Positions 35,574 to 52,252 of a stretch of DNA of 64,000 nucleotides are shown piece after piece. Position 1 is the first letter of the stretch. Each line of letters opens with the position of its first letter. The position numbers and the translations under genes are program-made. The notes below the pieces were generated by a model that saw only the letters and a list, made by a program, of their open reading frames with translations, was not told the DNA's origin and made no database searches. Source of the DNA: Polyangia bacterium (GTDB lineage Bacteria > Myxococcota_A > Polyangia > Nannocystales > Nannocystaceae); NCBI GenBank assembly GCA_030424595.1, contig JAUHWG010000020.1, positions 62,001-126,000 of the forward strand, in the 5' to 3' direction.

Positions 35574-35738
35574 GCGGGCTATGGCGAGAGCCTCGTGTGC
35601 TCTCGCGCACCCCCTTCGGCCCGCTCGGCTCCGCGGATGCGCAGCCGCGCCGGATCGGAGCCCGGGTTACGGCGCTGCCGAGAGGGCTGTCGGCGAACGA
35701 GCGAGCGAGCGCGGGCTCTTGCCACGGGCTGCGACGAG
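35574..35738. repeat. dispersed inverted-repeat element, copy 1
   Basis: The left arm (GGGCTATGGCGAGAGCC at about 35576-35592) matches the inverse of the right arm (GGCTCTTGCCACGGGCTGC at about 35720-35738). It is related to copies at 37380, 48971, 61635 and 63537. Confidence 0.5.
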
Positions 35739-35788
35739 CTGAGAGGTCGCGCGACAGGTGGGGAGCGCGAAGAGGTGCGAAGACAGGT

Positions 35789-35820
35789 CGGGCCGGCCTC
35801 CGCAGCGCGAAGCCGGCCCG
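35789..35820 (-). terminator. hairpin downstream of ssb
   Basis: A 9-bp stem CGGGCCGGC/GCCGGCCCG with a 14-nt loop lies 26 nt past the ssb stop. There is no U tract. Confidence 0.4.
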
Positions 35821-35845
35821 CACTTCTTGGGGGCGCCCTCGGGCC

Positions 35846-36466
35846 CTAGAACGGAATGTCGTCGTCGACCGGATCGGAGGGCTGGTAGGGATCCTCGTAG
35901 GGGGGGGGAGTGTCGCCTCCGCCTCCGCCGCCTCCGCCGCCTCCGCCACCATAGCCGCCGCTCTGGCCTCCACGGGCTCCGCCGCCTCCGCCGTAGCCGC
36001 CACCACCTCCGCCGCCGCCGTAGCCTCCGCCACTGCCGCCGCCGCTGTAGCCTCCGCCGCCGCCGTAGTCACCACCTCCGCCGCCGTAGTCACCACCTCC
36101 GCCGCCGCCGCCTCCACCGCCGCCTCCGCCGCCTCCGCCGCTGAGGAACTGGACGTTGTCGGCGACGATCTCGGTCGAGTAGTGGCGCTGGCCCTCCTTC
36201 TCGTAGCTCGTGGTCTTGAGCCGACCCTCGACGTACACCTGCCGCCCCTTGGTCAGGTAGGTGTTGCAGTGCTCGGCCGACTTCCCCCACACCGTGATCC
36301 GGTGCCACTCGGTCTCCTCGACCATCTCGTTGCTGCGCTTGTTCAGGTAGCGGCGCGATGTCGCGACCGCGAGGCGGCACACGGGCTGCCCTCCCTGGGT
36401 GTAGCGGAGCTCCGGGTCGCGTCCGAGGTTGCCAATTACGATCGCCTTGTTGATGCCGCCTGCCAT
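35846..36466 (-). CDS. ssb: single-stranded DNA-binding protein
   Basis: 206 residues. The OB fold is complete: NKAIVIGNLGRDPELRYTQGG, TEWHRITVWGKSAEHCNTYLTKGRQVYVEGRLKT, HYSTEIVADNVQFL. The C-terminal linker is an unusually long pure Gly/Tyr/Asp tract (about 75 residues), and the protein ends in the acidic tip DDDIPF that recruits replication and repair partners. It binds ssDNA as a tetramer. The start is the ATG before AGGINK; the frame is open further upstream but lacks family similarity there. Confidence 0.95.
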   Translation of the reverse strand: MAGGINKAIVIGNLGRDPELRYTQGGQPVCRLAVATSRRYLNKRSNEMVEETEWHRITVWGKSAEHCNTYLTKGRQVYVEGRLKTTSYEKEGQRHYSTEIVADNVQFLSGGGGGGGGGGGGGGGGDYGGGGGDYGGGGGYSGGGSGGGYGGGGGGGGYGGGGGARGGQSGGYGGGGGGGGGGGGDTPPPYEDPYQPSDPVDDDIPF

Positions 36467-37625: not shown

Positions 37626-38672
37626 GTGGGTTTTACGGAGATCCTCACCGCAATCATCACGATCTCGGTCCTGATCATCATCCACGAGTTCGGCCACTAC
37701 CTCTGCGCCGTCTCCACGGGGATGAAGGTCGACCGATTCAGCGTTCTGGGGATAGGTCCGGTCGTCGCCCGCCTCTTCACCTACAAGGGTACGGAGTTCG
37801 TCCTCTCGGCGATCCCCTTCGGCGCGTACGTCCACATCGTCGGCATGGAGCCCGAAGATGACGACCCCAAGGCGCCGCCCGACCCCGATCCGTCGCTCTT
37901 CCGCAATCGCCCGCTCTGGGCGCGGATGTTGACGATCGCCGGCGGACCCATCGCGAATTACCTGACGGCGTCGCTGATCATCTTCAGCGTCCTCGCGGTC
38001 GCCGGCAACCGCGACGTCATCACCATGGAGGTCGACGCGGTCCAGTCCGAGACCGCGAAGTCGGCCGGTATGGAGAGTGGCGACGAGCTGATCAAGATCG
38101 CCGAGTTCGACGTCACCGGCGACGAGCCCTACGGCAAGGTGTCCGAGGCGACCTCCTCCCACAAGGGCGAGACGGTCCCTGTGGTGGTCCGCCGCGAGGC
38201 CGACGAGGTCGAGCTCCAGGTGCCGATCTCCGACGCGGGCCTGATGGGCGTAGGCCTCGTCGAGGGCGAGGTCGTCCATCGCCCCGCCTCCCTCGGCCAC
38301 TCGGCCAAGATGGCCGTCCGCCAGCCCCTGGTGATCACCCAGAAGCAGCTCAAGGGGCTCTACTACCTGATCACCGGCCAGATCGACGCCAAGGTCTCGG
38401 GTCCGGTCGGCATCGTCAAGGAGATTGCGAAGTCCGCCGAGAAGGGCTGGATCGACCTCTTCTTCTTCGCCGCCGGGATCTCGACGCTCCTCGGGCTCTT
38501 CAACCTCCTGCCGCTCCCCGCCCTCGACGGCGGCCGCCTGGTCTTCCTCTTCTACGAGCTCATCGCCCGCCGTCCGGCGAACCGCCGGATGGAGGAGATG
38601 ATCCACGGGATCGGCATGCTCCTCCTCCTCGCGCTGATCCTCTACGTGACGATCGCCAACGACATCCTCTAG
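37626..38672 (+). CDS. rseP: site-2 protease RseP-like membrane metalloprotease
   Basis: 348 residues with a GTG start. The zinc site is HEFGH (His20, Glu21, His24) in the first membrane helix, and the third ligand motif is NLLPLPALDGGRL near the C-terminus. One PDZ domain lies between (about residues 130-205: SAGMESGDELIKIAEFDV), fewer than the two in E. coli RseP. Membrane helices flank these. It cuts transmembrane substrates such as anti-sigma factors. The gene has no dxr or bamA neighbour here. Confidence 0.9.
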   Translation: MGFTEILTAIITISVLIIIHEFGHYLCAVSTGMKVDRFSVLGIGPVVARLFTYKGTEFVLSAIPFGAYVHIVGMEPEDDDPKAPPDPDPSLFRNRPLWARMLTIAGGPIANYLTASLIIFSVLAVAGNRDVITMEVDAVQSETAKSAGMESGDELIKIAEFDVTGDEPYGKVSEATSSHKGETVPVVVRREADEVELQVPISDAGLMGVGLVEGEVVHRPASLGHSAKMAVRQPLVITQKQLKGLYYLITGQIDAKVSGPVGIVKEIAKSAEKGWIDLFFFAAGISTLLGLFNLLPLPALDGGRLVFLFYELIARRPANRRMEEMIHGIGMLLLLALILYVTIANDIL

Positions 38673-38892: not shown

Positions 38893-39789
38893 TCACGGGC
38901 TCGGGCTCGTGCTCGGGCTCGGGCTCGGGCCGAGGTAGCGAGCACAGGCGGCGACGAGCGCCTCGGGCGCCTCGATCCACAGCGCGTGGCCGATCCCCGG
39001 CAGACGCTCGAGCGGCGCGCCGACGAGCCCCGCCAGGCGCTCCGCCTCGTCGATCGGGAAGATCCAGTCGAGCTCGCCGCAGACGACAGCCCGGACCCTG
39101 TCGATCCCGCGAAGCTCCCCCTCCAGGCGATGCTCCAGGAGCGCGTCGAAGGCCCCGATCCAATTGGCGCGATCGAGCGGGACCTGCCCCAGGAGCGCCT
39201 CCAGCACCGCGACCACCCCCGGCCGCCGGAGAAAGGGGGGCCCGAAGAGCACGCCGATGAGCGCCCTCGCCAGGGTCATCGACCCGAGCTCCTGCTCAAA
39301 GAGCGCGCGGAGGTGGGCCATCATCGCCCGCTCCCGCGCCCGGAGACGGGCGGCCGTCGCCGCCAGGATCGCCCCCTCAAAGCGCTCCGGTGCGGCGAGG
39401 AGCGCGTGCTGGGCGACCACTCCGCCGAAGGACCAGGCGAGAACGTCGACCCGATCGAGCCCGCGCCGATCGAGCTCCGCGACGATCGCCGCGACCCGCG
39501 ACGGCCACGGGCCGGAGAGCGAGTCGGCCTCGATCGAGAGCACGGGTCGGGTCCGCGCGAGCCCGTCGAGGAGCGCGACCAGCCCCGCCTTGCCGCCGCC
39601 GAGGCCGGGGAGGACGAGGAGCGTCCGTCGATCGCTCGCCACGTCCCTCCCGACGCGGTCGATCACGGGCCCGTGGATCGCTCGCTTGGGGCCCCTCGTC
39701 GCGACCTTCGTCGCGGCCTTCGTCTCCGCCGCGCCCGCGCTCGCAGCCTCCTTCGATCGCGCCTCGCCTCTCTCTTGGTCGTCGCTCAT
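38893..39789 (-). CDS. alpha/beta hydrolase (BioH/thioesterase-like)
   Basis: 298 residues. After a 45-residue charged N-terminal extension comes LLVLPGLGGGKAGL, the nucleophile elbow AWSFGGVVA (Ser, with Ala in place of the first Gly), Asp in GELDWIFPID, and His in GIGHALWIEAP. The C-terminal Pro-Ser repeat comes from a short tandem repeat. Its start overlaps the hotdog gene by 4 bp. In this operon it may release or hydrolyse an acyl thioester or ester made by the adjacent KS/KR/ACP system. Confidence 0.78.
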   Translation of the reverse strand: MSDDQERGEARSKEAASAGAAETKAATKVATRGPKRAIHGPVIDRVGRDVASDRRTLLVLPGLGGGKAGLVALLDGLARTRPVLSIEADSLSGPWPSRVAAIVAELDRRGLDRVDVLAWSFGGVVAQHALLAAPERFEGAILAATAARLRARERAMMAHLRALFEQELGSMTLARALIGVLFGPPFLRRPGVVAVLEALLGQVPLDRANWIGAFDALLEHRLEGELRGIDRVRAVVCGELDWIFPIDEAERLAGLVGAPLERLPGIGHALWIEAPEALVAACARYLGPSPSPSTSPSP

Positions 39790-40223
39790 CCGCCCTCCCT
39801 CGCGAGCGTCACCTGGGCCTCAAGACATAGTTCGCCTTCTCCGCCGCCCTCTCCTTCGCCTGCCTCGACCCCAGCCCCTGGGCTCTCCCGCACCTCGACC
39901 GCGAGCTGGTGCATCGAGAGAAACGCGCGGAGGGGCCGGACCTCGACGATGAAGCGCTGGGCGCTGAGGGAGACCGGCCAGCGGACGCCCTCGTAGGCGA
40001 CGACCAGGAGCGAGAGCTCCGCTGGATCGGCGTCGCCGCGGGCGCAGAGGCCGGCCGCTTGCGCAGCGGCGTCGAGGAGCTCCGCCGGATGCCAGGCGCC
40101 GCGCTCGACCGTCAAGAAGCGGCGACCCCCGCGGGCCCGAGCCTGAAGCTCGCGCTCGATCGCCAGAGCCGGCCGCCGATGGCGGAGGCGAGCGCGGATC
40201 TCCGCGGGACCGAGGGCGCTCAC
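39786..40223 (-). CDS. hotdog-fold protein (dehydratase/thioesterase-like)
   Basis: 145 residues. The pattern ERGAWHPAELLDAAAQAAGL, VAYEGVRWPVSLSAQRFIVEVRPL and LCLEAQVTLAR fits a single hotdog domain of the FabZ/ApeP type. The position of the usual HFPGxP helix is replaced by AWHPAELLDAA, so its catalytic competence is uncertain. It overlaps both neighbours by 4 bp (ATGA), so it is made as part of one translational unit. Confidence 0.6.
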   Translation of the reverse strand: MSALGPAEIRARLRHRRPALAIERELQARARGGRRFLTVERGAWHPAELLDAAAQAAGLCARGDADPAELSLLVVAYEGVRWPVSLSAQRFIVEVRPLRAFLSMHQLAVEVRESPGAGVEAGEGEGGGEGELCLEAQVTLAREGG

Positions 40224-40672
40224 CGGACCACCTCCAGACGCGCGCTCGCGACCACGGTGCGCTCCGCAGGCGCGTCATCCCCCCCGCTCTCACCGCCTCG
40301 CAGCACCTCAGCGTCGACCCGCCCCGCCGTCTTCCCCAGGCGCGCCCGGACCCAGAGCCTCTCCTCCGGACCGACCGGGGCGCGGAAGACCGCCCTGCGG
40401 ACGAGGAGCTCGCCGACCTCTGCGCCCGCGAGGAGGCGAGCGACGTCGACCATCAGGGCGACGAGGTGGGAGCCCGGCACGATCGGTCTCCCGGGAAAGT
40501 GCCCCGCGCAGAGCCGGCGGAGCGCCGCTTCGCCGACGACCACCTCGACCTCACCAACCTGACCCTTTGAACATGCACCTTCGTCCTCGCGGACCTGCCG
40601 ACAAAAACGCGCTTGCGCGCTCTCCGGCGCGAGCGCGCGCAGGACTGACAGGTCGACGGGCTCCCCAGACAT
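40220..40672 (-). CDS. FabZ-like 3-hydroxyacyl-ACP dehydratase
   Basis: 150 residues. The hotdog catalytic region is CAGHFPGRPIVPGSHLVALMVDVARLL, with the FabZ-type His and the Pro-Gly helix start. The strand FRAPVGPEERLWVRARLGK follows. It would remove water from 3-hydroxyacyl-ACP in a type II synthase. It is the first gene of the minus-strand operon, and its ATG is 26 bp from the TTG of the divergent KS gene, with a -10 box shared between the two directions. Confidence 0.78.
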   Translation of the reverse strand: MSGEPVDLSVLRALAPESAQARFCRQVREDEGACSKGQVGEVEVVVGEAALRRLCAGHFPGRPIVPGSHLVALMVDVARLLAGAEVGELLVRRAVFRAPVGPEERLWVRARLGKTAGRVDAEVLRGGESGGDDAPAERTVVASARLEVVR

Positions 40673-40682
40673 GAGGCTCCGT

Positions 40683-40690
40683 AGTATACA
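40683..40690. promoter_or_regulatory. overlapping divergent -10 boxes (AGTATACA)
   Basis: The palindromic core GTATAC reads TATACT on the minus strand (10 nt before the ATG at 40672) and TATACA on the plus strand (8 nt before the TTG at 40699). The 26-bp intergenic space leaves no room for separate promoters or leaders, so both operons probably start from this symmetric element. Confidence 0.55.
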
Positions 40691-40698
40691 GAGGCCGC

Positions 40699-41880
40699 TT
40701 GGAACTCCGTCGAAACTCGGCCTCCGGGTGTCGTGTCGTGATCACTGGCATCGGCTCCTGGACAGCGCTTGGACCGACCTGGCCCGATCTCCGGAGCGCG
40801 GCCCTGGAGGGTCGCAGCGGCCTGCGCCCGGTGGGTAAGCGATCGCCCGCGCTCGCCGACGCGGTCGCCGGCCTGATCGACGATCTCAAGCCCTTCCGCG
40901 CCCGCTTCCCGGACATCCGCCCGCCCTTGCCGATCCCCCTGACGAGGATCGCCCTGGTCAGCGCCTACGAGGCGCTCAGCGACGCCGGCCTCCTAGAGGC
41001 CGACGATCGCGGGCGCTTCGGCGTGATCCTCGGCCGAGCCACCGGGCCGGCCTCGGTCGTCGTCAAGACCCTGACCCCCGTGATCCAACGGGGGCCGAAG
41101 AAGGCGAGCCCGCTCCTCTTCTCGCAGAGCGTCTCCAACGCGCCCCTCGGGGCGGTCGCCACCCGCTTCGGCCTCCGCGGCCCCAACCTCCTGGTCCAGT
41201 CCGGCGCCGCGCTGATGCTCGCCTTCGACGCCCTCCGCCGCGGGGACGCGCCGGTGATCCTCTGCGGCGGCATGGACGAGGTCGAGGAGCGCTCCTTCGC
41301 CGCCTCCGCCGCGAACGGCTTCATCGCCCCGCAGGTCGCCGCCGAGGCGATCTGTCCCTACGACCCTGCGTGCGCCGGACCCACCCACGGCGAAGGGGCC
41401 GCGTTCCTCACCCTCGAGCGAGAGGACCACGCGCGAGCCCGCGGGGCCAGGATCTACGGCGAGCTCTCGGCGATCACGGTCGGCGACGAGCCGGGCCTCC
41501 GCGACATGTCGCAGCTCCGCGGCTGGGGCTCGCCGACCGGCGAGGGGCTCGCGGAGCTCTGCCGCGAGGCGCTCGCCATGGCCGACGCCACCCCTGAGCG
41601 CATCGTCCTCCACAGCGGCAGCGGCAACGGTGAGGCGCGGGTCGACCGGGCCGAGCTCGACGCCCTCGCCCTCCTCGGCCGCGACGACCTCCGGCCCTTC
41701 AGCCTCAAGGGTCTGACCGGAGACACCCGCGGGGCCGGGCCTGTGCTCTGCGCGGCCTGGGCCGCAGCGTGGGCCCGCGAAGAGAGGAGCGCGGAGGCCC
41801 TCGCCCTGATCACCCACGTCGAGTTTCACGGCGGCGAGCTGGCGGCCGTCGTCCGACCCTGGACGGAGAACGAGCGATGA
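40699..41880 (+). CDS. ketosynthase-like protein without Cys-His-His triad (chain-length-factor-like)
   Basis: 393 residues of thiolase-fold ketosynthase. All three catalytic positions are changed: the active-site Cys segment reads LLVQSGAALML, the HGTGT segment reads LHSGSGNGEA, and the KxxxGHxxxAAG segment reads KGLTGDTRGAGP. The fold elements GITGIGSWTALGP-like VITGIGSWTALG and GEGAAFLTLERE remain. Catalytically dead KS partners act as chain-length factors in type II polyketide and aryl-polyene systems. It is followed by KR with an ATGA overlap. The TTG start is supported by TATACA 8 nt upstream; GTG at 40738 is possible. Confidence 0.8.
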   Translation: MELRRNSASGCRVVITGIGSWTALGPTWPDLRSAALEGRSGLRPVGKRSPALADAVAGLIDDLKPFRARFPDIRPPLPIPLTRIALVSAYEALSDAGLLEADDRGRFGVILGRATGPASVVVKTLTPVIQRGPKKASPLLFSQSVSNAPLGAVATRFGLRGPNLLVQSGAALMLAFDALRRGDAPVILCGGMDEVEERSFAASAANGFIAPQVAAEAICPYDPACAGPTHGEGAAFLTLEREDHARARGARIYGELSAITVGDEPGLRDMSQLRGWGSPTGEGLAELCREALAMADATPERIVLHSGSGNGEARVDRAELDALALLGRDDLRPFSLKGLTGDTRGAGPVLCAAWAAAWAREERSAEALALITHVEFHGGELAAVVRPWTENER

Positions 41881-42659
41881 GCGAGACGACCCAAGACACC
41901 GCGGAAGACGACGTCGAGCGTCGGGTCGCCCTGGTCACCGGCGGCTCGCGTGGGATCGGTCGGGCGATCGTCGTCGCCCTCGCCCGCCGCGGGCTGACGG
42001 TCGTCATCAACTACCGCAGCGATCAGGCCGCGGCCGAGTCCCTGCGGGCAGAGCTGGCAGAGGCCGGACACACGGTCACCCTGGCCCGCGCCGACGTCAG
42101 CGATCGCGGCGAGGTCAAGGCGATGTTCAAGGCGCTCCGCCGCGATCACGGCCGCCTCGACGTCCTGATCAATTGCGCCGGTGTCCTCCACGAGGGCCTC
42201 TTCATGTTCACCCCGGCCGATCGTTTTTGGGAGGTCCTCCGGACCAACCTCGGCGGGGTCGAGGCCTGCTGCCGCGCGGCGATCCCGAGCCTCAGCCGGC
42301 GACGCGACGGACGGATCGTCAACATCGCCTCGATCGCGGCGATCCACGCGACCGCCGGGCTCTCCGCCTACGCAGCCTCGAAGGCCGCGGTGATCGCCCT
42401 CTCGCAGGTGCTCGCCCGCGAGCTCGCCGGGATCGGCGTCCGCGTCAACGTCGTCGCCCCGGGGCTCGTCGAGACCGACATGACCGCCGGGATGGTCGAC
42501 GAGACCGCCCGCGAGCGCGCGCTCAGCCAGCAGCCGATCCCCCGGATCGGCCGCCCGGAGGAGGTCGCCAATCTCGTCACCTACCTCGCGCTCGACGCCC
42601 CCGACTACATGACGGGGACTGTCCAGCGGATCGATGGCGGGGCCATGATCGGAGGCTGA
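41877..42659 (+). CDS. 3-oxoacyl-ACP reductase (FabG-like SDR)
   Basis: 260 residues. NADPH-binding TGGSRGIGRAIVVALA, NCAGVLHEG (NAG-like), catalytic Ser in NIASIAAIHA, YxxxK in SAYAASKAAVI, and the C-terminal GGAMIGG of FabG-type reductases. It reduces 3-oxoacyl-ACP to 3-hydroxyacyl-ACP. The ATG overlaps the stop of the upstream KS-like gene (ATGA). The 42648-42690 region after it carries a 10-bp tandem repeat. Confidence 0.9.
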   Translation: MSETTQDTAEDDVERRVALVTGGSRGIGRAIVVALARRGLTVVINYRSDQAAAESLRAELAEAGHTVTLARADVSDRGEVKAMFKALRRDHGRLDVLINCAGVLHEGLFMFTPADRFWEVLRTNLGGVEACCRAAIPSLSRRRDGRIVNIASIAAIHATAGLSAYAASKAAVIALSQVLARELAGIGVRVNVVAPGLVETDMTAGMVDETARERALSQQPIPRIGRPEEVANLVTYLALDAPDYMTGTVQRIDGGAMIGG

Positions 42660-42690
42660 GCGGAGGCTGAGCGGCGGCTGAGCGGCGCCA
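42648..42690. repeat. 10-bp tandem repeat at the end of the KR gene
   Basis: The unit is CGGAGGCTGAG/CGGCGGCTGAG, about four copies. The first encodes the last residues and the stop. Confidence 0.7.
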
Positions 42691-42735
42691 AGCCGACGAG
42701 CGACCGCAAACGGACACGAGGCAGGGGAAGAGCAG

Positions 42736-42769
42736 ACCAGCGAAGGGCGAAGGGCGAAGGGCGAAGGAA
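42736..42769. repeat. 7-bp tandem repeat before the KS start
   Basis: Four to five copies of GCGAAGG lie directly upstream of the KS GTG. The last copy supplies the GGAAG ribosome site, so repeat-number changes could alter translation. Confidence 0.75.
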
Positions 42770-42775
42770 GACACA

Positions 42776-44041
42776 GTGCAGCGACACGATGAAAGACGAG
42801 CCGAGGCCGGCGACGCAGTGGTGATCACGGGGAGCTCCGCGTGGACCTGCTTTGGCCGCGGCGTCGACCGCCTGCTCCGGGCGATCGAAGAGGGGCGCCG
42901 CGAGCCCAAGCAGGTGCTCGGCTTCGACACCAGCGACCCGTGGTTCCTCACCCGAGAGGCGATGCAGGTGCCGCCGGAGCCGACGATCCGCTCCGCCCTC
43001 GACGACACGACCCGCCCGGTCGACCCGCAGTCCTGGTCGCTCAACCTCGCGGTCGAGACCGCCCTCGACGCGATCGTCGACGCCGGCCGGCCCCACGCCG
43101 AGATCGCGGCCCGGCGCATGGGCGTCCTCGTCGGCAGCTCGCACGGGACCAACCACGGGATGATCGAGCACCTCGAGCGGGGCCTCGCCGGGGAGACGCC
43201 GGACCCCGAGCTCCTCGCCGAGACCCCGAGCCTCGCCCCCCACGCGATCGCCCTCCGCCTCGCCACCTGCGGGCCGGCGATCGCCCTCAACACCGCCTGC
43301 TCCGCCGGCGCCAACGCGATCGGTCAAGCCTGGCACATGCTCCTCGACGGGCGGATCGACTGCGCCGTCGCGGGCGGCTACGACACCTTCTCGCGCCTGA
43401 GCTTCACCGGCTTCAACAGCCTCCGGGCCCTGGATCCCCAGGGCTGCCGCCCCTTCGATGTCAGCCGCGCCGGCCTCTCCCTCGGGGATGGCGCGGCGTT
43501 CTTCGTCCTCGAGCGCGAGGCCGACGCGCGCGCCCGCGGAGCGACGATCCTCGGCCGCCTGACGGGCTACGGCTGCGGCGGCGAGGCCTATCACCCGACC
43601 GCGCCCAACCCCGAAGGCGCGGGGATCTTCGCGGCGATGCGGCAGGCCCTGGCGACCGACCGAGCCCCCGAGGAGCTGACCCTCGTCTCCGCCCACGGCA
43701 CCGGCACCCCCGCCAACGACGCGGCCGAGGCGAACGCGATCGAGCGGCTCTGCCTGGCGATCCCCGCCCGTGAGGTCGTCCAGGTCGCGTCGCTCAAGTC
43801 GCAGACCGGGCACAGCCTCGGCGCCGCCGGTGCGGTCCAGGCCGTCGCCGCCCTCGCCTGCGCCCGCGCTGGGATCAGGCCGGCGACGATCGGCCTCCGC
43901 CAGCCGATCGACCACGGCCCCCGGATCTCCTTCCCCCAAGCGCCCGGACGGGGACCTGTCCCCCTCGCCCTGTGCAACGCCCTCGGCTTCGCCGGCAGCG
44001 TCGCCGCCCTCGCCCTTCGCCCCTTCCCAAGCGAGAGATGA
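42776..44041 (+). CDS. beta-ketoacyl-ACP synthase (FabF-like)
   Basis: 421 residues. The complete Cys-His-His triad is present: NTACSAG (Cys175), HGTGTP (His307), KSQTGHSLGAAG (His346). It performs decarboxylative condensation of malonyl-ACP with an acyl chain, presumably as a heterodimer with the inactive KS-like protein upstream. GTG start with GGAAG nearby. It overlaps the ACP gene by 4 bp (ATGA), so KS and ACP are translationally coupled. Confidence 0.93.
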   Translation: MQRHDERRAEAGDAVVITGSSAWTCFGRGVDRLLRAIEEGRREPKQVLGFDTSDPWFLTREAMQVPPEPTIRSALDDTTRPVDPQSWSLNLAVETALDAIVDAGRPHAEIAARRMGVLVGSSHGTNHGMIEHLERGLAGETPDPELLAETPSLAPHAIALRLATCGPAIALNTACSAGANAIGQAWHMLLDGRIDCAVAGGYDTFSRLSFTGFNSLRALDPQGCRPFDVSRAGLSLGDGAAFFVLEREADARARGATILGRLTGYGCGGEAYHPTAPNPEGAGIFAAMRQALATDRAPEELTLVSAHGTGTPANDAAEANAIERLCLAIPAREVVQVASLKSQTGHSLGAAGAVQAVAALACARAGIRPATIGLRQPIDHGPRISFPQAPGRGPVPLALCNALGFAGSVAALALRPFPSER

Positions 44042-44406
44042 CCATGGAGCACCCTGACAAGCCAGACCAGCCCGATCAACCCAACGTTCCGGGGACGACG
44101 GACGCCCCCGCGGACACGAGCCCGGTCGACCCCGCGATCGCCGGGCGGATCGTCGAGCAGATCATCGAGCGCCTCGAGCTCGAGGACTTCACGGTCGACG
44201 ACTTTCCCCGCGACGCTGTCCTCTTCGCCCCCCCCGAGGGCGGCGGCCTCGGCTTCGACTCGATCGCGAGCCTCGAGATCATCGCCGGCCTCGCCGACGA
44301 GTTTGATCTCCCCTTCGACAACATGGCCCGCGAGGACTTCATGAGCGTCGACTCCCTGGCGCGCTACGTCGCCCGTGAGCAGGCGGCCGAGGCCGATCCT
44401 GCCTAG
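44038..44406 (+). CDS. acyl carrier protein
   Basis: 122 residues. A 35-residue Pro/Asp/Thr-rich N-terminal extension precedes a four-helix carrier domain. The phosphopantetheine attachment motif is GFDSIASLEIIAGL (Ser of DSI). The next helix DEFDLPFDNM and SVDSLARYV complete the fold. It carries the growing acyl chain for the KS/KR/dehydratase set. No acyl-CoA ligase or phosphopantetheinyl transferase is adjacent. Confidence 0.9.
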   Translation: MTMEHPDKPDQPDQPNVPGTTDAPADTSPVDPAIAGRIVEQIIERLELEDFTVDDFPRDAVLFAPPEGGGLGFDSIASLEIIAGLADEFDLPFDNMAREDFMSVDSLARYVAREQAAEADPA

Positions 44407-44478
44407 TCCTGATCGGTCGCCCTGGAGCCCCGCGCGCGGCTCCTCTGGGCGATCTTCCCCTGCGAGCACGGACAGACC

Positions 44479-45996
44479 ATGAGGCTCGAGATCCTCGGCG
44501 GCGGTGCGATCATCATCGCCGGCAGCGACACCTCCCTGCTGCTCAACCCCCTCCTCGGCGAGCACCACAGCGGCGGCCGCTTCGCCCCCTACCCGCCGCG
44601 CCAGATCGACGTCCCGCAGATGCCGCTGTGCGGCGCGGTCCTCCTGAGCGGGGTCGATCCGAGCCGCCTCGACCTCGAGTCCCTGGCGAGGGTCCCACGC
44701 TCGACCCCGATCCTCGCCCCTGATGATCGCCTCGCCCTCGGCTGCATCGACGGCCTCGGCTTCGCCAACATCGAGGTGATCTGCGACTGGCGGCCCGTCG
44801 ACGCCGGCTCGCTGGAGATCATCGCGACCCCTGGATCGGGGCCCGCGAGCCACGGCTTTATCCTCCGCGGCGACGGCCTGACCCTCTGGCACCTCGCCCG
44901 CGCCCTCCCCGACGCGGCGACGATCCGCGAGGTCCACCGCCTCTTCGGCGACGTCGACCTCCTCATCGCCCCGCTCCACCGAGGGGCCCCGGACCCGCAG
45001 GGCTCCGGCGACCCGGTCGAGCAGCATCGCCGGGTGCTCGCGACGATCCGCGCGATCGGACCGGCTGCGCTCATCCCCGACGGAGTCTCGGCCGCGATCG
45101 GCCCCTCCGCGTCGGCCAACCATCGCCTCTTCCCGATAAGCCGCGAGCGAGCCCTCCTGGACCTCGCCGCGCTCGACCCAGAGCTCGGCGCCCGCCTCTT
45201 CGTCGTCGACCCGGGGGACGCCCTCGTGATCTCGGAGGGGGTCGTCGCCCGCGAGCGAGGTCTGCTCCGCTACTGCGCTCGCGTGGCCGACCACGAGCCT
45301 GCGCGCATCGAGCTCCGACCGCGACCCGCTGCGGGCCCGCGCCCCCTGCCGGAGGGGGTGACGGACGAACACTTTGCGGCTGTGCTAACGGACATCCTTG
45401 ACGCCGTAGTCAACGCTGCACAGGGCGATCCTCGCGCCTTCGCCGAACACCGTCGCTGGCGCGCACGCTGGCGCTACGACGTCCTCCTCCCCGACGAGAG
45501 CCGCCTCACCCGAACGATCGATCTTTGCGCCAGACCAGGCGCAATTGATCCTGAGGAGAGCCCGGCGACATCTCCGTGCACGGCGATCACAGCGATCCAT
45601 GCGGCCAGCCTGATCGATCTCCTGAGCGGCGCCGCGAGCTGGTCGACGCTCGTCGCGGCCGGCGAGATCGCCGTCGACACCCACCTCTATCGCGTCGACG
45701 AGGCCGGCCTCCACCGGGCGCCGGAGCCCCTCATCGACCCCCTCGTTCTCGCCTTCGCCGGCGATGAGGCGCGCGAGCAGAGCCTCGCGCGCGCCGTCGA
45801 GCAGCTCCTCACCGAGGAACATGTCTCTGGAGACATGGGATCGTCTCGTGACAAAGATGCGCCCCAGATCGACAGTGAAGCGATTATGCGCGGCATCTCC
45901 GAGGCGCTCCACACCGCAGGGCTTGACGCGAACATGGCCGACGCTATAGCTTGGCCACCGGAAGTTAGTGACGAAGGTGGTGGACATGAAGAATGA
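44479..45996 (+). CDS. metallo-beta-lactamase-fold-like protein lacking metal ligands
   Basis: 505 residues. The N-terminus MRLEILGGGAIIIAGSDTSLLLNPLL follows the UlaG/MBL start. The position of the HxHxDH motif reads LLSGVDPSRLDLESL, so the zinc ligands are gone. Later fragments (ATPGSGPASHGFILRGDGLTLWHL, DLLIAPLHRG) fit the rest of the fold. Residues about 290-440 form a second domain (LYRVDEAGLHRAPEPLIDPLVLAFAG), and the tail is acidic. The partner domain was not recognised. It lies in the KS/ACP operon and overlaps the next, Tat-signal, gene. It could be a non-catalytic scaffold. Confidence 0.6.
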   Translation: MRLEILGGGAIIIAGSDTSLLLNPLLGEHHSGGRFAPYPPRQIDVPQMPLCGAVLLSGVDPSRLDLESLARVPRSTPILAPDDRLALGCIDGLGFANIEVICDWRPVDAGSLEIIATPGSGPASHGFILRGDGLTLWHLARALPDAATIREVHRLFGDVDLLIAPLHRGAPDPQGSGDPVEQHRRVLATIRAIGPAALIPDGVSAAIGPSASANHRLFPISRERALLDLAALDPELGARLFVVDPGDALVISEGVVARERGLLRYCARVADHEPARIELRPRPAAGPRPLPEGVTDEHFAAVLTDILDAVVNAAQGDPRAFAEHRRWRARWRYDVLLPDESRLTRTIDLCARPGAIDPEESPATSPCTAITAIHAASLIDLLSGAASWSTLVAAGEIAVDTHLYRVDEAGLHRAPEPLIDPLVLAFAGDEAREQSLARAVEQLLTEEHVSGDMGSSRDKDAPQIDSEAIMRGISEALHTAGLDANMADAIAWPPEVSDEGGGHEE

Positions 45997-46483
45997 TACG
46001 AGGCGTGAACTTCTGACCAAGCTCGGGATCGGCGCGGCCGCTGCCGTGGCCGTCGCGGCTGCACCCAAGACCGCAGCCGCAGGGCCCATCCCGGCGCAGC
46101 AGCTCCCCAAGACGCTCCCCAAGAACCTCCCGGGCAAGCTCAAGCTGACCTCGGCCTCGCGGGTCCAGCTCGTCAAGCCGCTCGAGCCGCGGACCCTCCA
46201 GGTCCGGGTCGCGGTGACCAAGGCGGGCGTCGTCATCGACGCCGCGGCGACCCCCAAGGTGAAGGTCGGCCTGACCAAGGATCGTCGCGTTCTCCAGCTC
46301 GGCGTTCAGGTCGACTCGGTCGGCGGCGTCAACGTTCTCGGGCTCAACGCCCTGGTCGAGGCGGCCGCCGCCTCGGGCTCCGGTCGCTGCAACGGCAACG
46401 GCAAGGACAAGCTGCAAGAGGTCATCAACCCCGCAGAGCTGACCATCGACGCCCTCAAGGGCGACATGATGGCCCGCTTCTAG
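45986..46483 (+). CDS. Tat-signal small protein in the lipid/arginase cluster
   Basis: 165 residues. The twin-arginine signal is TRRELLTKLGIGAAAAVAVAA with cleavage near TAAAG. The mature part is basic and beta-rich (KLKLTSASRVQLVKPL, TLQVRVAVTKAGVVIDAAATPKVKVGL, RVLQLGVQVDSVGG) and has one Cys near the end. AAGGTGG 5 nt before the ATG is one of the best ribosome sites in the window, which suggests high expression, and the start overlaps the upstream gene by 11 bp. It is a candidate substrate or carrier for the neighbouring arginase-like and acyltransferase enzymes. No family recognised. Confidence 0.72.
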   Translation: MKNDTRRELLTKLGIGAAAAVAVAAAPKTAAAGPIPAQQLPKTLPKNLPGKLKLTSASRVQLVKPLEPRTLQVRVAVTKAGVVIDAAATPKVKVGLTKDRRVLQLGVQVDSVGGVNVLGLNALVEAAAASGSGRCNGNGKDKLQEVINPAELTIDALKGDMMARF

Positions 46484-46504
46484 CGGTCCACGACAAGCGT
46501 ACGC

Positions 46505-47758
46505 ATGGGTCGCTCGACTCTGACGCGCCGTCTCCAGGTCAACCCTGACCTGAGGCGCGTGGCGGGGTCAGCGACCCACGCTTTTTTGCGCTCGGATCCG
46601 CGGCGGCTCTTCGAGCTCACGGCCGACACCTTTGAGCTGCTCAGCCAGCTCCGCGAGCCGCAGACCATCGCCGAGCTCCTGGGCGAGCCCGACGACGCCA
46701 CCCTCGCGATCATCGACGAGCTCGTCGAGCTCGGGATCCTCCAGGCCGAGGGTCCGCGCTCCGCCCCGAAGCCGGCCCTGCGACCGCTCGGCCAGCGCCT
46801 CTGCGGCGCGCCGGCCTGGCTCGGAGAGCCCCTGCGAGCGGGCGCGGTCGTCATCGTCGGCGCCCCCTTCGACGACCTCACGCCGGCGCCGCACCCCCGC
46901 GGTGCCGCCAGCGGTCCCGCCCTTGTCCGCCGCGCGAGCGCCCCCTTCCCGCTAGAGCCGAGCCTCCGCACCGGCGCGGTGATCGGCCTCTACGACATCG
47001 ACCTCGGCCGCAACCTGATGGCCGGCGTCGACCTGGTCGACGCCGGCGATCTCCCGCCCCTCGCCGGCGCCCCGGCGAGCGACTATCTCCAGGCCCTGAG
47101 CGCGGAGCTGCGGGCGATCCTCGACGCCGGCGCCCGCCCCCTCCTCCTGGGCGGCGATCACAGCGTCAGCGCAGCGGCGATCGACGCCCTCGTCCACGCC
47201 CAGGGCGGGGGACCTCTCGGGATCCTCCACGTCGACGCCCACACCGACGCGGCGCCGATCCGCTGGCCCGGCGAGCTGCACCACGGCAACGTCCTCCGCG
47301 CGATCGCCCGTCGACCCGAAGTCGTCGACATCACCTGTGTGGGCGCCCGGGGCTTTCAAGACATCCCCGAGGAGCTCGAGGGCACCCCCTACCGCGCGCT
47401 CTCGCCGAACATCCTCCGCGCCGCGGACCCGAGCGCGCTCGCCGGGCTCCTCCGCGAGGACATCCCCTACTACGTGACCGTCGACATCGACGCCCTCGAC
47501 CCGACCGTCGCCCCGGCGACCGGCGTTCTCGAGCCCGACGGCCTCGGCCTCGGCGAGCTGCGTCACCTCCTGCGGACGATGATCGGCGCCCGCGAGGTGC
47601 TCGCCGCCGATCTCTGCGAGGTCCACGGCGAGGTCCACGGCCAGGTCCACGGCCAGGTCCACGGCCAGGGAGCAGGCGCGGAGCTCACCGGCAAGGCCGC
47701 CTTCCAGGTCATCGTCGAGCTCATCGACCTCCTCGCCCGCCCGACACCGGCCGCCTGA
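46505..47758 (+). CDS. arginase-family ureohydrolase with PqqD/RRE-like N-terminal domain
   Basis: 417 residues. Residues about 15-85 (FLRSDPRRLFELTADTFELL, TIAELLGEPDDATLAIIDELVELGIL) look like a PqqD-type winged-helix recognition element. The ureohydrolase domain has all manganese ligands: GGDHS (216-220), DAHTD (244-248), DID (327-329). A fourfold EVHG/QVHG repeat (about 372-388) sits near the C-terminus. Arginases release urea from arginine. Arginase-family enzymes with RiPP recognition are known as peptide arginases that make ornithine in peptides (OspR type). A free-arginine or agmatine substrate is the alternative. Next to LpxL-like acyltransferase. Confidence 0.75.
   Translation: MGRSTLTRRLQVNPDLRRVAGSATHAFLRSDPRRLFELTADTFELLSQLREPQTIAELLGEPDDATLAIIDELVELGILQAEGPRSAPKPALRPLGQRLCGAPAWLGEPLRAGAVVIVGAPFDDLTPAPHPRGAASGPALVRRASAPFPLEPSLRTGAVIGLYDIDLGRNLMAGVDLVDAGDLPPLAGAPASDYLQALSAELRAILDAGARPLLLGGDHSVSAAAIDALVHAQGGGPLGILHVDAHTDAAPIRWPGELHHGNVLRAIARRPEVVDITCVGARGFQDIPEELEGTPYRALSPNILRAADPSALAGLLREDIPYYVTVDIDALDPTVAPATGVLEPDGLGLGELRHLLRTMIGAREVLAADLCEVHGEVHGQVHGQVHGQGAGAELTGKAAFQVIVELIDLLARPTPAA
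47624..47671. repeat. 12-bp tandem repeat in the arginase-like gene
   Basis: Four copies of GAGGTCCACGGC/CAGGTCCACGGC encode Glu/Gln-Val-His-Gly. The frame is kept. Confidence 0.9.
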
Positions 47759-47767
47759 GCGCTGACC

Positions 47768-48967
47768 ATGGACCGAGCTCGCCCCCTGACCCCGGCGCGA
47801 CGGGCCTCCCGCAGGGCGGCCCACCGAGCGGTGCTCGCCTCCCACAGCGGGCCGCAGGCGGAGATGTTCGACCGCCGCGAAGCCGCCGCCCTCACCGGCG
47901 CGGCGATCGGTCTCCAGGGCCAGGCCACGCGGGCGGAGATCCGCCGCGTCGCCCGACGGAGCAGCCGCCTGGTTCTCTACTACGACCGACTCTGGGAGGA
48001 CAACGACACCTGGGAGCCCTTCGCGATCGCCGGCCGCGAGCACCTCGACGCCGCCCTCGCCCGCGGCCGCGGGGTGATCTTCGTGCCCTCGCATTTTGGC
48101 CGCTATCGCTGGGTCCCGCTCGCCCTCCTGGAGCTCCGCCTGCCCGTCACCCTCCTCGTCGATGAGCGCAACCACGGGCTCATCACCGCCGACGTCGACG
48201 CGCGGATCGACGCGATGCACCACCACCTCCGCCCGGACATCTTCGACACCGTCGAGAGCGGCGACCCCTCGGCGCTCTGGCAGCTCGCGCGGGCGCTCAA
48301 GGGCGGCTCGGTGACCGTGATGTTCGCCGACGGAAACAGCGGGATCGACGGTCAGGCGAGCCCCCGCGGCGCCCAGGTCGTCCCCTTCCTCGGCCAGTCG
48401 ATCTTCGTCCGCCCGGGGATCGGCGCCCTCGCGGCGACCACCGACGCGACGGTCGTCCCGGTCTTCTGCCACGAGCGCCGTGACGGCCCGCCGATCCTCC
48501 GCTTTGACCCGCCGATCTACCGGGGCCCGGACGAGCGCCGCAGCGTCTACCGCGAGCGGGTGATGCTCGAGCTCTTCGCCACCTTGGAGCGGGAGATCCT
48601 CGCCCAACCGTGGCTCTGGGAGGAGTGGTGGATCCTGCCGCGCTGGCTCGCCGCGGCGCCTGTCTTCCCCGAGATCTCAGCCCCGCCCCCGCGTCGCTTC
48701 TCTGTTACCCTGCCAGGGCTCGTAGGCCGCCGCCTATGCCTGCCGCGCGACGATATTTGGGCCCTTCGGGGGGCGTCGGGACCGGAGATCTGGAGCTTCG
48801 CCAGCGGCGAGGTCGTGCGCGGCGAGGCCGAGCTCGCAGACCTCCTGCGCGCCGCCGAGGAGCGACGCCCAGCCGGCGCATGGCTCCGCGAGCGCCCCTC
48901 GATCGAGCCCGCGCGGCGCACCCTCGAGGGCGCGCTCGATGCGGGGTTGGTCGCCCTCCTGCGCTAG
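47768..48967 (+). CDS. LpxL/HtrB-like acyltransferase with C-terminal extension
   Basis: 399 residues. The acyltransferase core shows GVIFVPSHFGRYRWVPLALLEL, with the conserved His but Arg instead of the acidic residue of the HxxxxD/E motif. FADGNSGIDGQASPRGAQVVPFLGQSIFVRPGIGALA and ATVVPVFCHERRDG follow the lysophospholipid/lipid A acyltransferase family. The last about 75 residues (RRLCLPRDDIWALRGASGPEIWSFASGE) form an extra small domain. It probably transfers an acyl chain from the ACP of this cluster, but the changed motif makes catalysis uncertain. It starts 9 bp after the arginase-like gene. Confidence 0.72.
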   Translation: MDRARPLTPARRASRRAAHRAVLASHSGPQAEMFDRREAAALTGAAIGLQGQATRAEIRRVARRSSRLVLYYDRLWEDNDTWEPFAIAGREHLDAALARGRGVIFVPSHFGRYRWVPLALLELRLPVTLLVDERNHGLITADVDARIDAMHHHLRPDIFDTVESGDPSALWQLARALKGGSVTVMFADGNSGIDGQASPRGAQVVPFLGQSIFVRPGIGALAATTDATVVPVFCHERRDGPPILRFDPPIYRGPDERRSVYRERVMLELFATLEREILAQPWLWEEWWILPRWLAAAPVFPEISAPPPRRFSVTLPGLVGRRLCLPRDDIWALRGASGPEIWSFASGEVVRGEAELADLLRAAEERRPAGAWLRERPSIEPARRTLEGALDAGLVALLR

Positions 48968-48970
48968 CGA

Positions 48971-48987
48971 GCCGCGGCGAAGGTCCC
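48971..48987. repeat. dispersed repeat, copy 3 (one arm)
   Basis: GCCGCGGCGAAGGTCCC lies 3 bp after the stop codon of the acyltransferase gene, matching the arm of the dispersed inverted-repeat family. Confidence 0.5.
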
Positions 48988-49025
48988 CAGCGCTCGCACG
49001 GCCCCCCCACAGAGCGAGGCTCGGC

Positions 49026-49700
49026 ATGAGCGGGGCCGTCGCGGCGCTCCTCGTCCACATCATCGCCGGCTCGACAGCGATGCTCTGCGGCGCCGTCGCG
49101 CTCCTCAGCCTCAAGGGGGGCCGGACCCACCGACGCTTTGGCGCCGTCTTTCTCGCGGCGATGATCCTGATCGGCCTGAGCGCGATCGTCCTGACCTTCT
49201 TCCGGCCCAACCTCTTCCTCCTCTTCCTCGCCCTCTTCGCCCTCTATCTCGTGATCTGGGGCCGCCTCGCCCTGACCCGCAAGCGCCTCGCCCCGGAGCA
49301 GCCGGCGCCGCGCTCCCACCTCCTGCCGACCCTGCTCTTCGGCCTCAGCTCCCTCGCCTTCCTCGCGGTCGCGATCCGCAACGGCGCCCCTGTCTTCATC
49401 GTCTTCGTCGGCCTCGCGCTCCTCCTCGTCCGCGGACATCTCGGACGCCTGCGCCACGGCGGCGAGCACCGCCTCCACTGGCTCGTCGACCACGTCTTCG
49501 GCTTCGCGATCGCCTACGTCGCCGGTCTGACCGCCGTCCTCGTCGTCAACACGACGCCCCACCTGCCGCCGACCCTGCCGCTGCTCTTCCTGGTCTGGCT
49601 CGGCCCGACGGCGGTCGGCGTGCCCCTCGTCATCCGCTACGCCCGCAAGCTGCGGCGAACGGCGGAGGGCGCCCCGACAAGGGGTCGCGCCGAGCGGTGA
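49026..49700 (+). CDS. DUF2306-like integral membrane protein
   Basis: 224 residues with seven hydrophobic helices. The opening VAALLVHIIAGSTAMLCGAVALLSLKGG and a histidine in GRTHRRFGAVFL resemble DUF2306/cytochrome-like membrane proteins. No catalytic motif can be read. It begins 58 bp after the acyltransferase and may be the last gene of that operon. Confidence 0.65.
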   Translation: MSGAVAALLVHIIAGSTAMLCGAVALLSLKGGRTHRRFGAVFLAAMILIGLSAIVLTFFRPNLFLLFLALFALYLVIWGRLALTRKRLAPEQPAPRSHLLPTLLFGLSSLAFLAVAIRNGAPVFIVFVGLALLLVRGHLGRLRHGGEHRLHWLVDHVFGFAIAYVAGLTAVLVVNTTPHLPPTLPLLFLVWLGPTAVGVPLVIRYARKLRRTAEGAPTRGRAER

Positions 49701-49858: not shown

Positions 49859-52252
49859 ATGGCCAAGGCCAAGCGCAAGGGAGGCGCCCGCAGCAGCCGC
49901 GGGACACCGCCGCCGCCGGTCCCCGCGGACTGGACACCGCGGGCGACCTCGCGCGAAGAGCTGCTCGCGCTGGTCGAGCGGCTCCCCGACGTGCCCGGCG
50001 TCTACATCATGCGCGATCGCGCAGGCGCGGTCGTCTACGTCGGCAAGGCCCGCCGCCTGCGGGCCCGCGTCCGGCAGTACTTCAGCGGCCACGACACCCG
50101 CCACTTCGTCCCCCTCCTGGGCGACCTGCTCGGCGACCTCGAGACCGTCGTCACCGCCAACGACAAGGAGGCGCTGCTCCTCGAGAACACGCTGATCAAG
50201 ACGCACCGGCCGCGCTTCAACGTCAAGCTCCGGGACGACAAGCAGTACCTGGTGCTCCGCCTCGACCCGGCCAAGGAGTGGCCGCGCCTCGAGCTCGTCC
50301 GCCGGGTCGCCAGCGACAACGCCCACTACTTCGGCCCCTATCACTCCGCCGGCGCGGTCCGCCACGCGCTGCGGGTCGTCAACCGCCACTTCAAGCTGCG
50401 GACCTGCACCGACTACGTGCTCCACCACCGCCGGCGCGCCTGTCTTCAGCACCAGATCGGCCGCTGCCCCGCCCCCTGCGTCTACGAGGTCGACGAGGCC
50501 GCCTACGCCGCCCAGGTCCGCGACGTCTCGCTCTTCCTCGGCGGCCGCCACAAGGAGCTGGTCGCCGACCTCAAGGCGCGCATGGAGGCCGCCGCCGCGC
50601 AGCTCGACTTCGAGTCCGCAGCCCGCCTCCGCGACCGGATCTCCGCGATCGAGACCACCCTCGAGAGCCAGCGGGTGGTCAGCGTCGGCGACCGCGATCA
50701 GGACATCATCGGCATGTACCGCGAGGGCGGCCAGGTCGAGTTCGTCGTCATGCACGTCCGCCAGGGCAAGCTCCTCGGCACCCGGATCTACTCCCAGCGG
50801 GGGATGGAGCTCCCCGACCCCGAGGTGCTCCACTCCTTCCTCGCCGCCTACTACGCCGACGCGCCGATGATCCCCGACGAGGTGCTCATGCCGACCGCGC
50901 TCCACGAGGACGACGCCGCGCCCCTCGTCGCCTGGCTGCGGGAGGCGAGCGGCCGCAAGACCGTTCTCCTGGTCCCGGAGCGCGGCGACAAGCGCAAGCT
51001 GCTCCGCCTCGCCCAGCGCAACGCCGCCTCCAACTTCGTCTCGCGGCGCAACCAAAAGAAGGACGCCGACCAGGCGCTCACCGAGCTCCAGCAGCGCTTC
51101 GGCCTGAGCCGCCTGCCGCGGGTGATCGAGTGCTACGACATCAGCCACATCCAGGGCTCTGACACGGTCGCGTCGATGGTCGTCTTCGTCGACGGAGCCC
51201 CCGCCAAGGACCGCTACCGCTCCTTCAAGATCCGCGGCCTCGAAGGCGCGCTGGCCCAGGGAAACCGGCAAAACGACGACTTCGCGAGCATGCAGGAGGC
51301 CCTCGGGCGGCGCCTCCGTCGTGGTCTCGAGGCGGCGGCTGGCGACGACAACGACGACACTACCGACACGACCGACGCCGCCGAGACGGACGAGAGCGCT
51401 GGGGCCGACGACCCCTGGGCCCTGCCGGACCTCCTGGTGATCGACGGCGGCAAGGGCCAGCTCGGGCGGGTCCTCGCGGCGATGCAGGACATGGGCGTGC
51501 CCGTCGGCGCCGAGGGGGTCGACGTCATCTCGCTGGCGAAGGAGCGGCGCCTCGAGCTCGGCCACGGGAAGACCGCCCTCCGGCGCCTCCGAGCCCGCCG
51601 CAGCGCGCAGCCGAAGGCGAGCGTCGCCGCGCCCGCGCTGACCGCCCGCGACGGCGATGGGAGCGAGCGCCTCTCCGCCGAGGGGGCGACGACCAGCTCC
51701 CCCAGGACCCCTGCGGAGATGGGGAGAGGCGCCCCGGACGGCGCATATCAAGAGGTCCGGGCGGAGGTCGACGATCCCGACGCGCCGACCCCCGACGCCG
51801 CCCCCGAGACCTCGGTCTGGGACTCCCTCCTGCCCGACCCCGAGCCGGGGCAGGCGCTCAAGGACTACGTCGTCGCCACCGCCGACGAGGTCGACGCCCA
51901 CGTCCCCCCGGACGACGACGGCGAGATCAAGCCCGAGCGGGTCTTCGTCCCCGGGCGCCGGGAGTCGATCCGCCTCCGGCCCGGCTCGTCGGAGCTCCAC
52001 CTCCTCACGCGGATCCGCGACGAGGCCCACCGCTTCGCGATCACCCACCACCGCAAGCGCCGGGGCAAGCGAGCGTTGGTCTCCTCCCTCGACCGGATCC
52101 CCGGCGTCGGCCCGGCGATGAAGCGCGCGCTCATCAAACACTTCGGCTCGATCGCCGCGATCAAGCGGGCCGACGTCGAGGCCCTGAAGGAGGTCAAGGG
52201 CGTAGGCCCCAGCCTCGCCGCGAGGATCCGCGAGACGATCGGCGAGGGCTAG
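49859..52252 (+). CDS. uvrC: excinuclease ABC subunit C with long insert
   Basis: 797 residues, well above the usual about 600-650. The GIY-YIG nuclease lies at about residues 45-120 (VPGVYIMRDRAGAVVYVGKARRL). The UVR motif is KARMEAAAAQLDFESAARLRDRISAIE-like (read in pieces). The RNase H-like nuclease has ECYDISHIQGSDTVASMVVF and DLLVIDGGKGQL, and two C-terminal helix-hairpin-helix units follow (IPGVGPAMKRALIKHFGS, VKGVGPSLAARI). Two acidic/Pro-rich inserts break the RNase H-like domain: about 25 residues before LPDLLVIDGG and about 130 residues after SLAKERRLELGHGKTALRR. It makes the dual incisions in nucleotide-excision repair. Confidence 0.94.
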   Translation: MAKAKRKGGARSSRGTPPPPVPADWTPRATSREELLALVERLPDVPGVYIMRDRAGAVVYVGKARRLRARVRQYFSGHDTRHFVPLLGDLLGDLETVVTANDKEALLLENTLIKTHRPRFNVKLRDDKQYLVLRLDPAKEWPRLELVRRVASDNAHYFGPYHSAGAVRHALRVVNRHFKLRTCTDYVLHHRRRACLQHQIGRCPAPCVYEVDEAAYAAQVRDVSLFLGGRHKELVADLKARMEAAAAQLDFESAARLRDRISAIETTLESQRVVSVGDRDQDIIGMYREGGQVEFVVMHVRQGKLLGTRIYSQRGMELPDPEVLHSFLAAYYADAPMIPDEVLMPTALHEDDAAPLVAWLREASGRKTVLLVPERGDKRKLLRLAQRNAASNFVSRRNQKKDADQALTELQQRFGLSRLPRVIECYDISHIQGSDTVASMVVFVDGAPAKDRYRSFKIRGLEGALAQGNRQNDDFASMQEALGRRLRRGLEAAAGDDNDDTTDTTDAAETDESAGADDPWALPDLLVIDGGKGQLGRVLAAMQDMGVPVGAEGVDVISLAKERRLELGHGKTALRRLRARRSAQPKASVAAPALTARDGDGSERLSAEGATTSSPRTPAEMGRGAPDGAYQEVRAEVDDPDAPTPDAAPETSVWDSLLPDPEPGQALKDYVVATADEVDAHVPPDDDGEIKPERVFVPGRRESIRLRPGSSELHLLTRIRDEAHRFAITHHRKRRGKRALVSSLDRIPGVGPAMKRALIKHFGSIAAIKRADVEALKEVKGVGPSLAARIRETIGEG

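Follow-up and report, generated by a model that had tools for sequence, protein, structure and literature searches.

A conserved gene cluster of the Nannocystaceae that joins an aryl-polyene-type chain synthase to enzymes like those of ribosomal peptide pathways, and its candidate acylated, ornithine-bearing product

We describe here a gene cluster found in a 64,000-nt stretch of DNA (bases 62001–126000 of contig JAUHWG010000020.1, hereafter the window) from the 9.5 Mb genome of a Polyangia bacterium, in a family, Nannocystaceae, that also holds Enhygromyxa salina. Two divergent gene groups lie between rseP (37626–38672) and uvrC (49859–52252). The minus-strand group encodes a FabZ-like hotdog protein, a second hotdog protein and an alpha/beta hydrolase. 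The plus-strand group encodes, in order, a ketosynthase (KS) lacking the catalytic Cys, a ketoreductase (KR), a second KS, an acyl carrier protein (ACP), a metallo-beta-lactamase (MBL)-fold protein, a protein with a twin-arginine translocation (Tat) signal, a ureohydrolase (below, also the arginase), an LpxL-type acyltransferase and a DUF2306 membrane protein, whose gene (to 49700) belongs to the cluster unit. An original prediction, made from the letters of the window, had read these genes as a type II fatty-acid/polyketide-like set joined to enzymes resembling those that make ribosomally synthesized and post-translationally modified peptides (RiPPs). The enzymes it named are all present as open reading frames (ORFs) at or near the places it assigned to them, and they have family matches (Table 1).

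With the MBL protein as query, a search of 79 related genomes, followed by comparison of the neighbourhoods, brought up the same 11 genes, in identical order and orientation, in two other genera of the family. One copy (locus L024) is in the metagenome-assembled genome (MAG) Polyangia bacterium Co_bin.371 and the other (L025) in E. salina SWB005; identity to the window proteins is 38–67% and 32–67%, respectively. The flanks of the cluster differ in these relatives, and uvrC is on other contigs in both genomes. Because gene order is kept while the flanks differ and uvrC sits elsewhere, we regard the genes, on this comparison, as one cluster that moves as a unit; an 11-gene order at unrelated loci in three genera is more than chance. 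The genes that follow the ACP gene are attached to it in both relatives and lie nearby in every genome that has the set. Their absence there would have counted against the proposal that the fatty-acid/polyketide genes and the RiPP-like enzymes form one system, and the proposal has thus passed the check set for it. The cluster is rare: the acyltransferase has orthologues in three of the 29 genomes of the family, a scan of 84,980 species genomes for two short peptide patterns returned the L024 and L025 loci only, and 379 genomes of the phylum (a set that does not include the L024 genome) yielded no further arginase with the extra N-terminal domain. A search for further clusters through the fused dehydratase of the relatives (see below) led to G353, a different pathway with an acyltransferase but without the arginase, MBL and Tat genes. 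At the cluster edge in the MAG (L024:1080–2369) there is an ORF that by eye resembles a tyrosine recombinase, perhaps a trace of transfer.

The genes had also been described as coupled by stop–start overlaps. This holds for several pairs: 4-nt overlaps join the hydrolase to the second hotdog gene, the two hotdog genes to each other, and the Cys-less KS gene to the KR gene, and the Tat gene starts 11 nt inside the MBL gene, its ATG at 45986 preceded by GAAGGTGG. Short gaps separate the Tat gene from the arginase gene (21 nt) and the latter from the acyltransferase gene (9 nt). The coupling is nevertheless broken in two places, KR–KS (116 nt) and ACP–MBL (72 nt). The KR–KS gap (42660–42775) is filled by short tandem repeats, GCGGAGGCTGA and GCGAAGG units.

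Table 1. Genes of the cluster in the window, with the matches or features on which each assignment is based
Feature	Coordinates	Strand	Matches and remarks
Alpha/beta hydrolase, candidate thioesterase/chain-release enzyme	38893..39789	-	PF12697 8.4e-8; orthologues at the same place in L024 and L025
Second hotdog protein (ApeP-like half)	39786..40223	-	LRHRxPALxIxR and ELLDAAAQAAG motif; no Pfam match
FabZ/ApeI-like hotdog half	40220..40672	-	GHFPGRPIVPG; weak matches, PF07977 0.005 and TIGR01750 8e-4 (NCBIfam)
KS lacking the catalytic Cys and the His motifs; chain-length-factor-like partner	40699..41880	+	PF00109 5.5e-24
FabG-like KR	41877..42659	+	TIGR01830 1.6e-70; 61-62% identity to relatives
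KS with Cys-His-His triad	42776..44041	+	TIGR03150 8e-73; PRK09185 1e-63
ACP (FDSIASLE)	44044..44406	+	PF00550 5e-4; PRK09184 3.5e-7; 67% identity to relatives
MBL-fold protein with C-terminal extension	44479..45996	+	Metal site lost in window, intact in relatives
Tat-signal protein, 165 aa, candidate precursor/substrate	45986..46483	+	TIGR02811 1e-5, below cut-off
Ureohydrolase with probable N-terminal PqqD/RRE-like domain	46505..47758	+	PF00491 3e-42
LpxL/PatA-type acyltransferase with C-terminal beta-then-three-helix domain	47768..48967	+	PF03279 2.5e-11
DUF2306 membrane protein	48939..49700	+	PF10067 1.2e-8; relatives adjoin the cluster in L024 and L025

The KS with the triad keeps Cys175, His307 and His346 in all three orthologues. 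In each of the three clusters its partner is devoid of the Cys and of both His motifs, which is what one would expect of a chain-length-factor-like subunit; the intact and the dead KS that had been noticed in the window have the same state in both relatives. The two hotdog proteins are a single fused ORF in the relatives (281 and 286 aa), and those of the window therefore very probably work as a pair. The fusion fits a dehydratase pair like ApeI:ApeP; the best PDB match of the GHFPG half of a fused relative is 6qsr_A, which we take to be the ApeI subunit of the dehydratase formed by ApeI and ApeP. The ACP and the KS match PRK09184 and PRK09185, respectively, models known from aryl polyene (APE) clusters. 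The original prediction had found no enoyl reductase, and there is none in the window or in either of the two related loci, so that from pathway knowledge an unsaturated chain would be expected. The likeness to APE clusters that it drew stands for the elongation enzymes: the cluster has an APE-type pair of KS and chain-length factor, a KR, an ApeI/ApeP-type dehydratase made of two hotdog domains and an ACP, and shares with APE clusters the absence of an enoyl reductase. It fails beyond them, for among the cluster genes of the window, L024 and L025 there is no aryl starter ligase, no initiating third KS and no RND/LolA export gene, and the arginase, Tat-signal protein and MBL are additions relative to APE clusters.

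In the ureohydrolase the metal-ligand motifs GGDHS, DAHxD and DxDxxDP are invariant across the three clusters; its nearest PDB structures are proclavaminate amidinohydrolase (5.5e-33) and agmatinases, not the arginases that act on L-arginine. The acyltransferase, of family PF03279, matches PatA and LpxM by fold. Both enzymes have an extra domain, and that of the arginase had been called PqqD-like. The Pfam model is silent on this point, since a PF05402 (PqqD) scan of the three genomes scored neither the arginase nor the acyltransferase, but profile–profile comparison supports it. A PqqD profile was built from 25 members of the class and aligned with hhalign against the cluster proteins, cut into 82 slices, with 120 column shuffles as control. 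The arginase N-terminus (first ~92 residues) matched with 52.7% probability (P 1.4e-4) and in a sensible register, and the acyltransferase C-terminus came second (10.5%, P 0.003, 64 columns). No slice of another protein exceeded 8.4%, and the shuffles reached at most 3.2% for the arginase domain and 1.4% for the acyltransferase domain. In an AlphaFold2 (AF2) model the acyltransferase C-terminus has strands at 322–324, 331–334, 340–343 and 349–351 and then three helices, with block-mean predicted local distance difference test scores (pLDDT) of 78–87 for the helices and 52–70 for the strands. RiPP recognition element (RRE) domains are common, though not universal, on RiPP modifying enzymes. They are defined by strands first and three helices after (beta3-alpha3) (PMC12710340), an order that the modelled acyltransferase C-terminus shares. 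We consider a PqqD/RRE-like domain probable at the arginase N-terminus and possible at the acyltransferase C-terminus. Sequence searches of the PDB with either extra domain gave chance matches only, and comparison of the two domains with each other showed no clear relation.

The gene between those for the MBL and the arginase, in all three clusters, is that of the Tat-signal protein. Its three sequences share an invariant start (MKN-TRR--L-KLG), a conserved body and an invariant GRC, followed by a variable tail, and the arginine of GRC is the only one invariant in the mature part. Among 331 genomes of the phylum the protein has only chance matches outside the cluster, and it matches neither NHLP nor Nif11 precursor families in Pfam or NCBIfam.

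The MBL-fold protein had been called a pseudo-MBL, and in the window its metal motif HxHxDH is indeed lost (LSGVDPSRLD); the relatives keep it (HAHSDH and HAHADH). The relatives' protein is probably a tailoring enzyme that oxidises or hydrolyses, whereas that of the window is probably a remnant or scaffold without catalytic function. The family to which it belongs is a broad one in myxobacteria, similar in its N-terminal part to CmlA, NAPE-PLD and SaxA. The three cluster MBLs form one clade (99/96), with a branch length of 1.0 for the window protein versus 0.47 and 0.52 for the others. Their closest outside relative is in another genome of the same bacterial family (L026; G009:C154:17500–37400), in a locus that, like our cluster, pairs an MBL with an arginase; there the MBL gene directly adjoins that of a peptide arginase. 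This arginase is, however, PF12640-like (E 1.6e-4, below the Pfam cut-off; DAHLD and LDIDLDYF motifs), and the surroundings are different too: a separate RiPP locus (L026:9336–16849) also has an NHLP precursor (3e-13), a LanM-type protein, YcaO and TfuA, and there are no fatty-acid genes. The LanM-type ORF of L026 holds the DUF4135 part only. Other members of the MBL family abut a SagB-type dehydrogenase (L027), adjoin a Nif11 precursor, a lantibiotic dehydratase and a C39 transporter (L126; G183:C20), or adjoin radical SAM or B12 radical SAM proteins (L125, L134, L136, L028 and L140). In total about 10 of the 33 outside members look RiPP-associated, a label assigned by gene reading, and many members are without such company. 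These loci lend independent support, at the level of gene neighbourhoods, to the RiPP link, to which the PqqD/RRE-like domains of the arginase and, more weakly, of the acyltransferase add. That this MBL type keeps company with arginases of two unrelated families speaks for a peptide substrate of the cluster arginase.

The wider MBL family has further features of its own. A tandem second MBL domain is present in L126 and L138 (G316:C712), beside Nif11 or GG-type precursors, and in L126 one protein joins this second domain to the C-terminal domain of a lantibiotic dehydratase. In L125, L134 and L140 (with L028 and L136) the MBL is beside a B12-binding radical SAM protein that also carries a PCMT-like domain, fused to it. 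L125 and L140 further encode small repeat peptides, with GPCLSP or GPCLDY motifs, near the MBL and radical SAM genes; these may represent a peptide family not yet described.

The window appears to hold a reduced form of the cluster. Beside the cluster both relatives carry genes for an AsnB-type amidotransferase (41% mutual identity, both with the N-terminal Cys) and for a Rieske/SRPBCC protein (44% mutual identity). Neither is within the 64-kb window; the Rieske protein has no orthologue in the whole host genome, and AsnB was not searched genome-wide. Given these missing genes and the loss of the MBL metal site, the window version may make a simpler product. A beta-lactam product, suggested by the combination of an AsnB-type enzyme with one like proclavaminate amidinohydrolase, was considered and rejected: in both relatives AsnB retains the N-terminal Cys typical of glutamine-dependent enzymes, and the genes read include no carboxyethylarginine synthase. 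Directly downstream of the acyltransferase gene, in E. salina only, is a gene for a diiron protein of the fatty-acid-desaturase/rubrerythrin kind (L025:13791–14618). Elsewhere in the window (35461–36144), long antisense Ala/Ser-rich ORFs arise from the glycine-rich C-terminal tail of ssb; they are probably not genes.

The best reading of the cluster is a selidamide-like pathway, in which arginine is converted to ornithine and then N-acylated, run by other enzyme families and combined with Tat export. The KS and the Cys-less KS would elongate an acyl chain on the cluster ACP, with the KR and the split dehydratase reducing and dehydrating it in each round; in the absence of an enoyl reductase the chain would stay (poly)unsaturated, and the hydrolase would probably edit or release chains. 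The Tat-signal protein would be bound by the PqqD/RRE-like domains, N-terminal on the arginase and C-terminal on the acyltransferase. The PF00491 enzyme would hydrolyse at least one arginine to ornithine, the invariant arginine of GRC being the candidate, and the LpxL-type enzyme would acylate the ornithine amine with the ACP-borne chain, after which the product would exit by the Tat route. What the sequences show is which genes are present, that they are conserved together, to which families they belong, in what state their active sites are and that the MBL family keeps RiPP company; we infer every reaction, substrate and product of this scheme. We give an even chance to the view that the genes form a single cluster whose product is a lipoprotein or lipopeptide, ribosomally encoded and bearing ornithine. 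Arginine-to-ornithine conversion plus acylation, the product logic put forward at the outset, we keep as a hypothesis; a free ornithine lipid, the other product then mentioned, is less likely because the leader-binding-type domains and the dedicated Tat protein would go unexplained. The fully specified version is tentative and on the doubtful side: a folded, Tat-exported protein of ~130 residues whose GRC arginine becomes ornithine, with its side-chain amine polyene-acylated by an LpxL-family enzyme that has acquired a leader-binding domain.

Several points weigh against this pathway. The cluster has no gene for a protease, for a transporter or for a precursor of a known family, and the three clusters known are too few for the modified residue to be read from sequence. 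The arginase is nearest to enzymes that act on small molecules. The PqqD similarity is modest for both extra domains, with the PF05402 scan negative, and AF2 confidence is low on the arginase N-terminus, modelled from an alignment of three sequences. The Tat protein is large for a precursor (~130 aa mature) and has a conserved body, and it could therefore be a folded carrier instead.

Such a carrier, or a receptor, is what the Tat protein would be in the periplasm under the main rival reading, in which the product is a small lipid. The ureohydrolase would then take free arginine, agmatine or a guanidino intermediate as its substrate, and the LpxL-type enzyme would acylate the amine with the polyene. 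The PDB matches of the ureohydrolase agree with this, LpxL/PatA enzymes normally acylate lipids and sugars, the glutamine-type AsnB of both relatives could amidate a small acid, and a related MBL protein has an SCP2-like C-terminal domain. We nevertheless judge it unlikely, for it accounts neither for the PqqD/RRE-like domains of the arginase and the acyltransferase nor for the presence of MBL relatives in RiPP loci, and it sits badly with the constant place of the Tat gene between the MBL and arginase genes. Alternatively, the product could be an aryl-polyene-type pigment, the extra genes serving only to anchor and export the polyene and the arginase and Tat protein being accessory. The KS, the ACP and the FabZ-like half do resemble APE enzymes, and APE clusters also carry acyltransferases (PMC8253772), but the aryl-AMP ligase, third KS and RND/LolA-type export of the Escherichia coli APE cluster are all missing (PMC8253772), and the MBL–Tat–arginase block is always present, which makes a pigment quite improbable. 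Nor does the cluster correspond to the second APE cluster described in the genome paper on E. salina, which is reported for SWB007 and DSM 15201, not SWB005 (PMC6226438). Chance adjacency of two unrelated operons would suit the 72-nt gap between the ACP and MBL genes, where a promoter/terminator scan does not settle the transcript; with the ACP–MBL junction kept in three genera at unrelated genome positions, we find it hardly credible.

The selidamide-like pathway has partial precedents. Selidamides (kamptornamide, phaeornamide and nostolysamide) follow the same proposed logic, ornithine formation and then acylation; to our knowledge no dedicated chain synthase serves them, whereas here there is a dedicated type II synthase. 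They use a PF12640 arginase, a GNAT acyltransferase and NHLP/Nif11 precursors, as against a PF00491 enzyme with a PqqD-like domain, an LpxL-type enzyme (PF03279) and a Tat-signal protein. In selidamides a peptide arginase makes ornithine and an acyltransferase adds a fatty chain to the side-chain amine (PMC12703449, PMC13060382). KgrD, the PF00491 arginase of the enteropeptins, targets a ribosomal-peptide arginine that neighbours a cysteine (PMC12703449), and GRC in our cluster likewise puts an arginine beside a cysteine. KgrD, however, needs a thiomorpholine first made from the cysteine; our cluster is without a radical SAM gene and has a dedicated acyl-chain synthase. Ornithine acylation in selidamides and the PF00491 peptide arginase KgrD thus give a precedent for each half of the pathway, although our cluster departs from both in its enzyme families and in its carrier protein. 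In lipolanthines, goadvionins and lipoavitides a GNAT enzyme performs N-terminal acylation on class III lanthipeptides, with no arginase and with other synthases. These too combine a ribosomal peptide with a chain from dedicated fatty-acid/polyketide genes (PMC13060382).

There are few fatty-acid/RiPP hybrids, and those lipidated ones of which we found descriptions use GNAT acyltransferases. If the proposed pathway is true, the cluster would bring a further, unrelated enzyme family to the lipidation of ribosomal peptides, would add an arginase family that carries its own leader-binding domain, and would link aryl-polyene-type synthases to ribosomal products. As far as the literature we found goes, it would include the first LpxL-type acyltransferase working on such a ribosomal substrate and the first such substrate to be Tat-exported. 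The cluster is small, rare and testable in a cultured strain, E. salina SWB005. The MBL family, found beside two kinds of candidate peptide arginase and many other RiPP genes, is moreover a search handle for unrecognised RiPP loci of myxobacteria.

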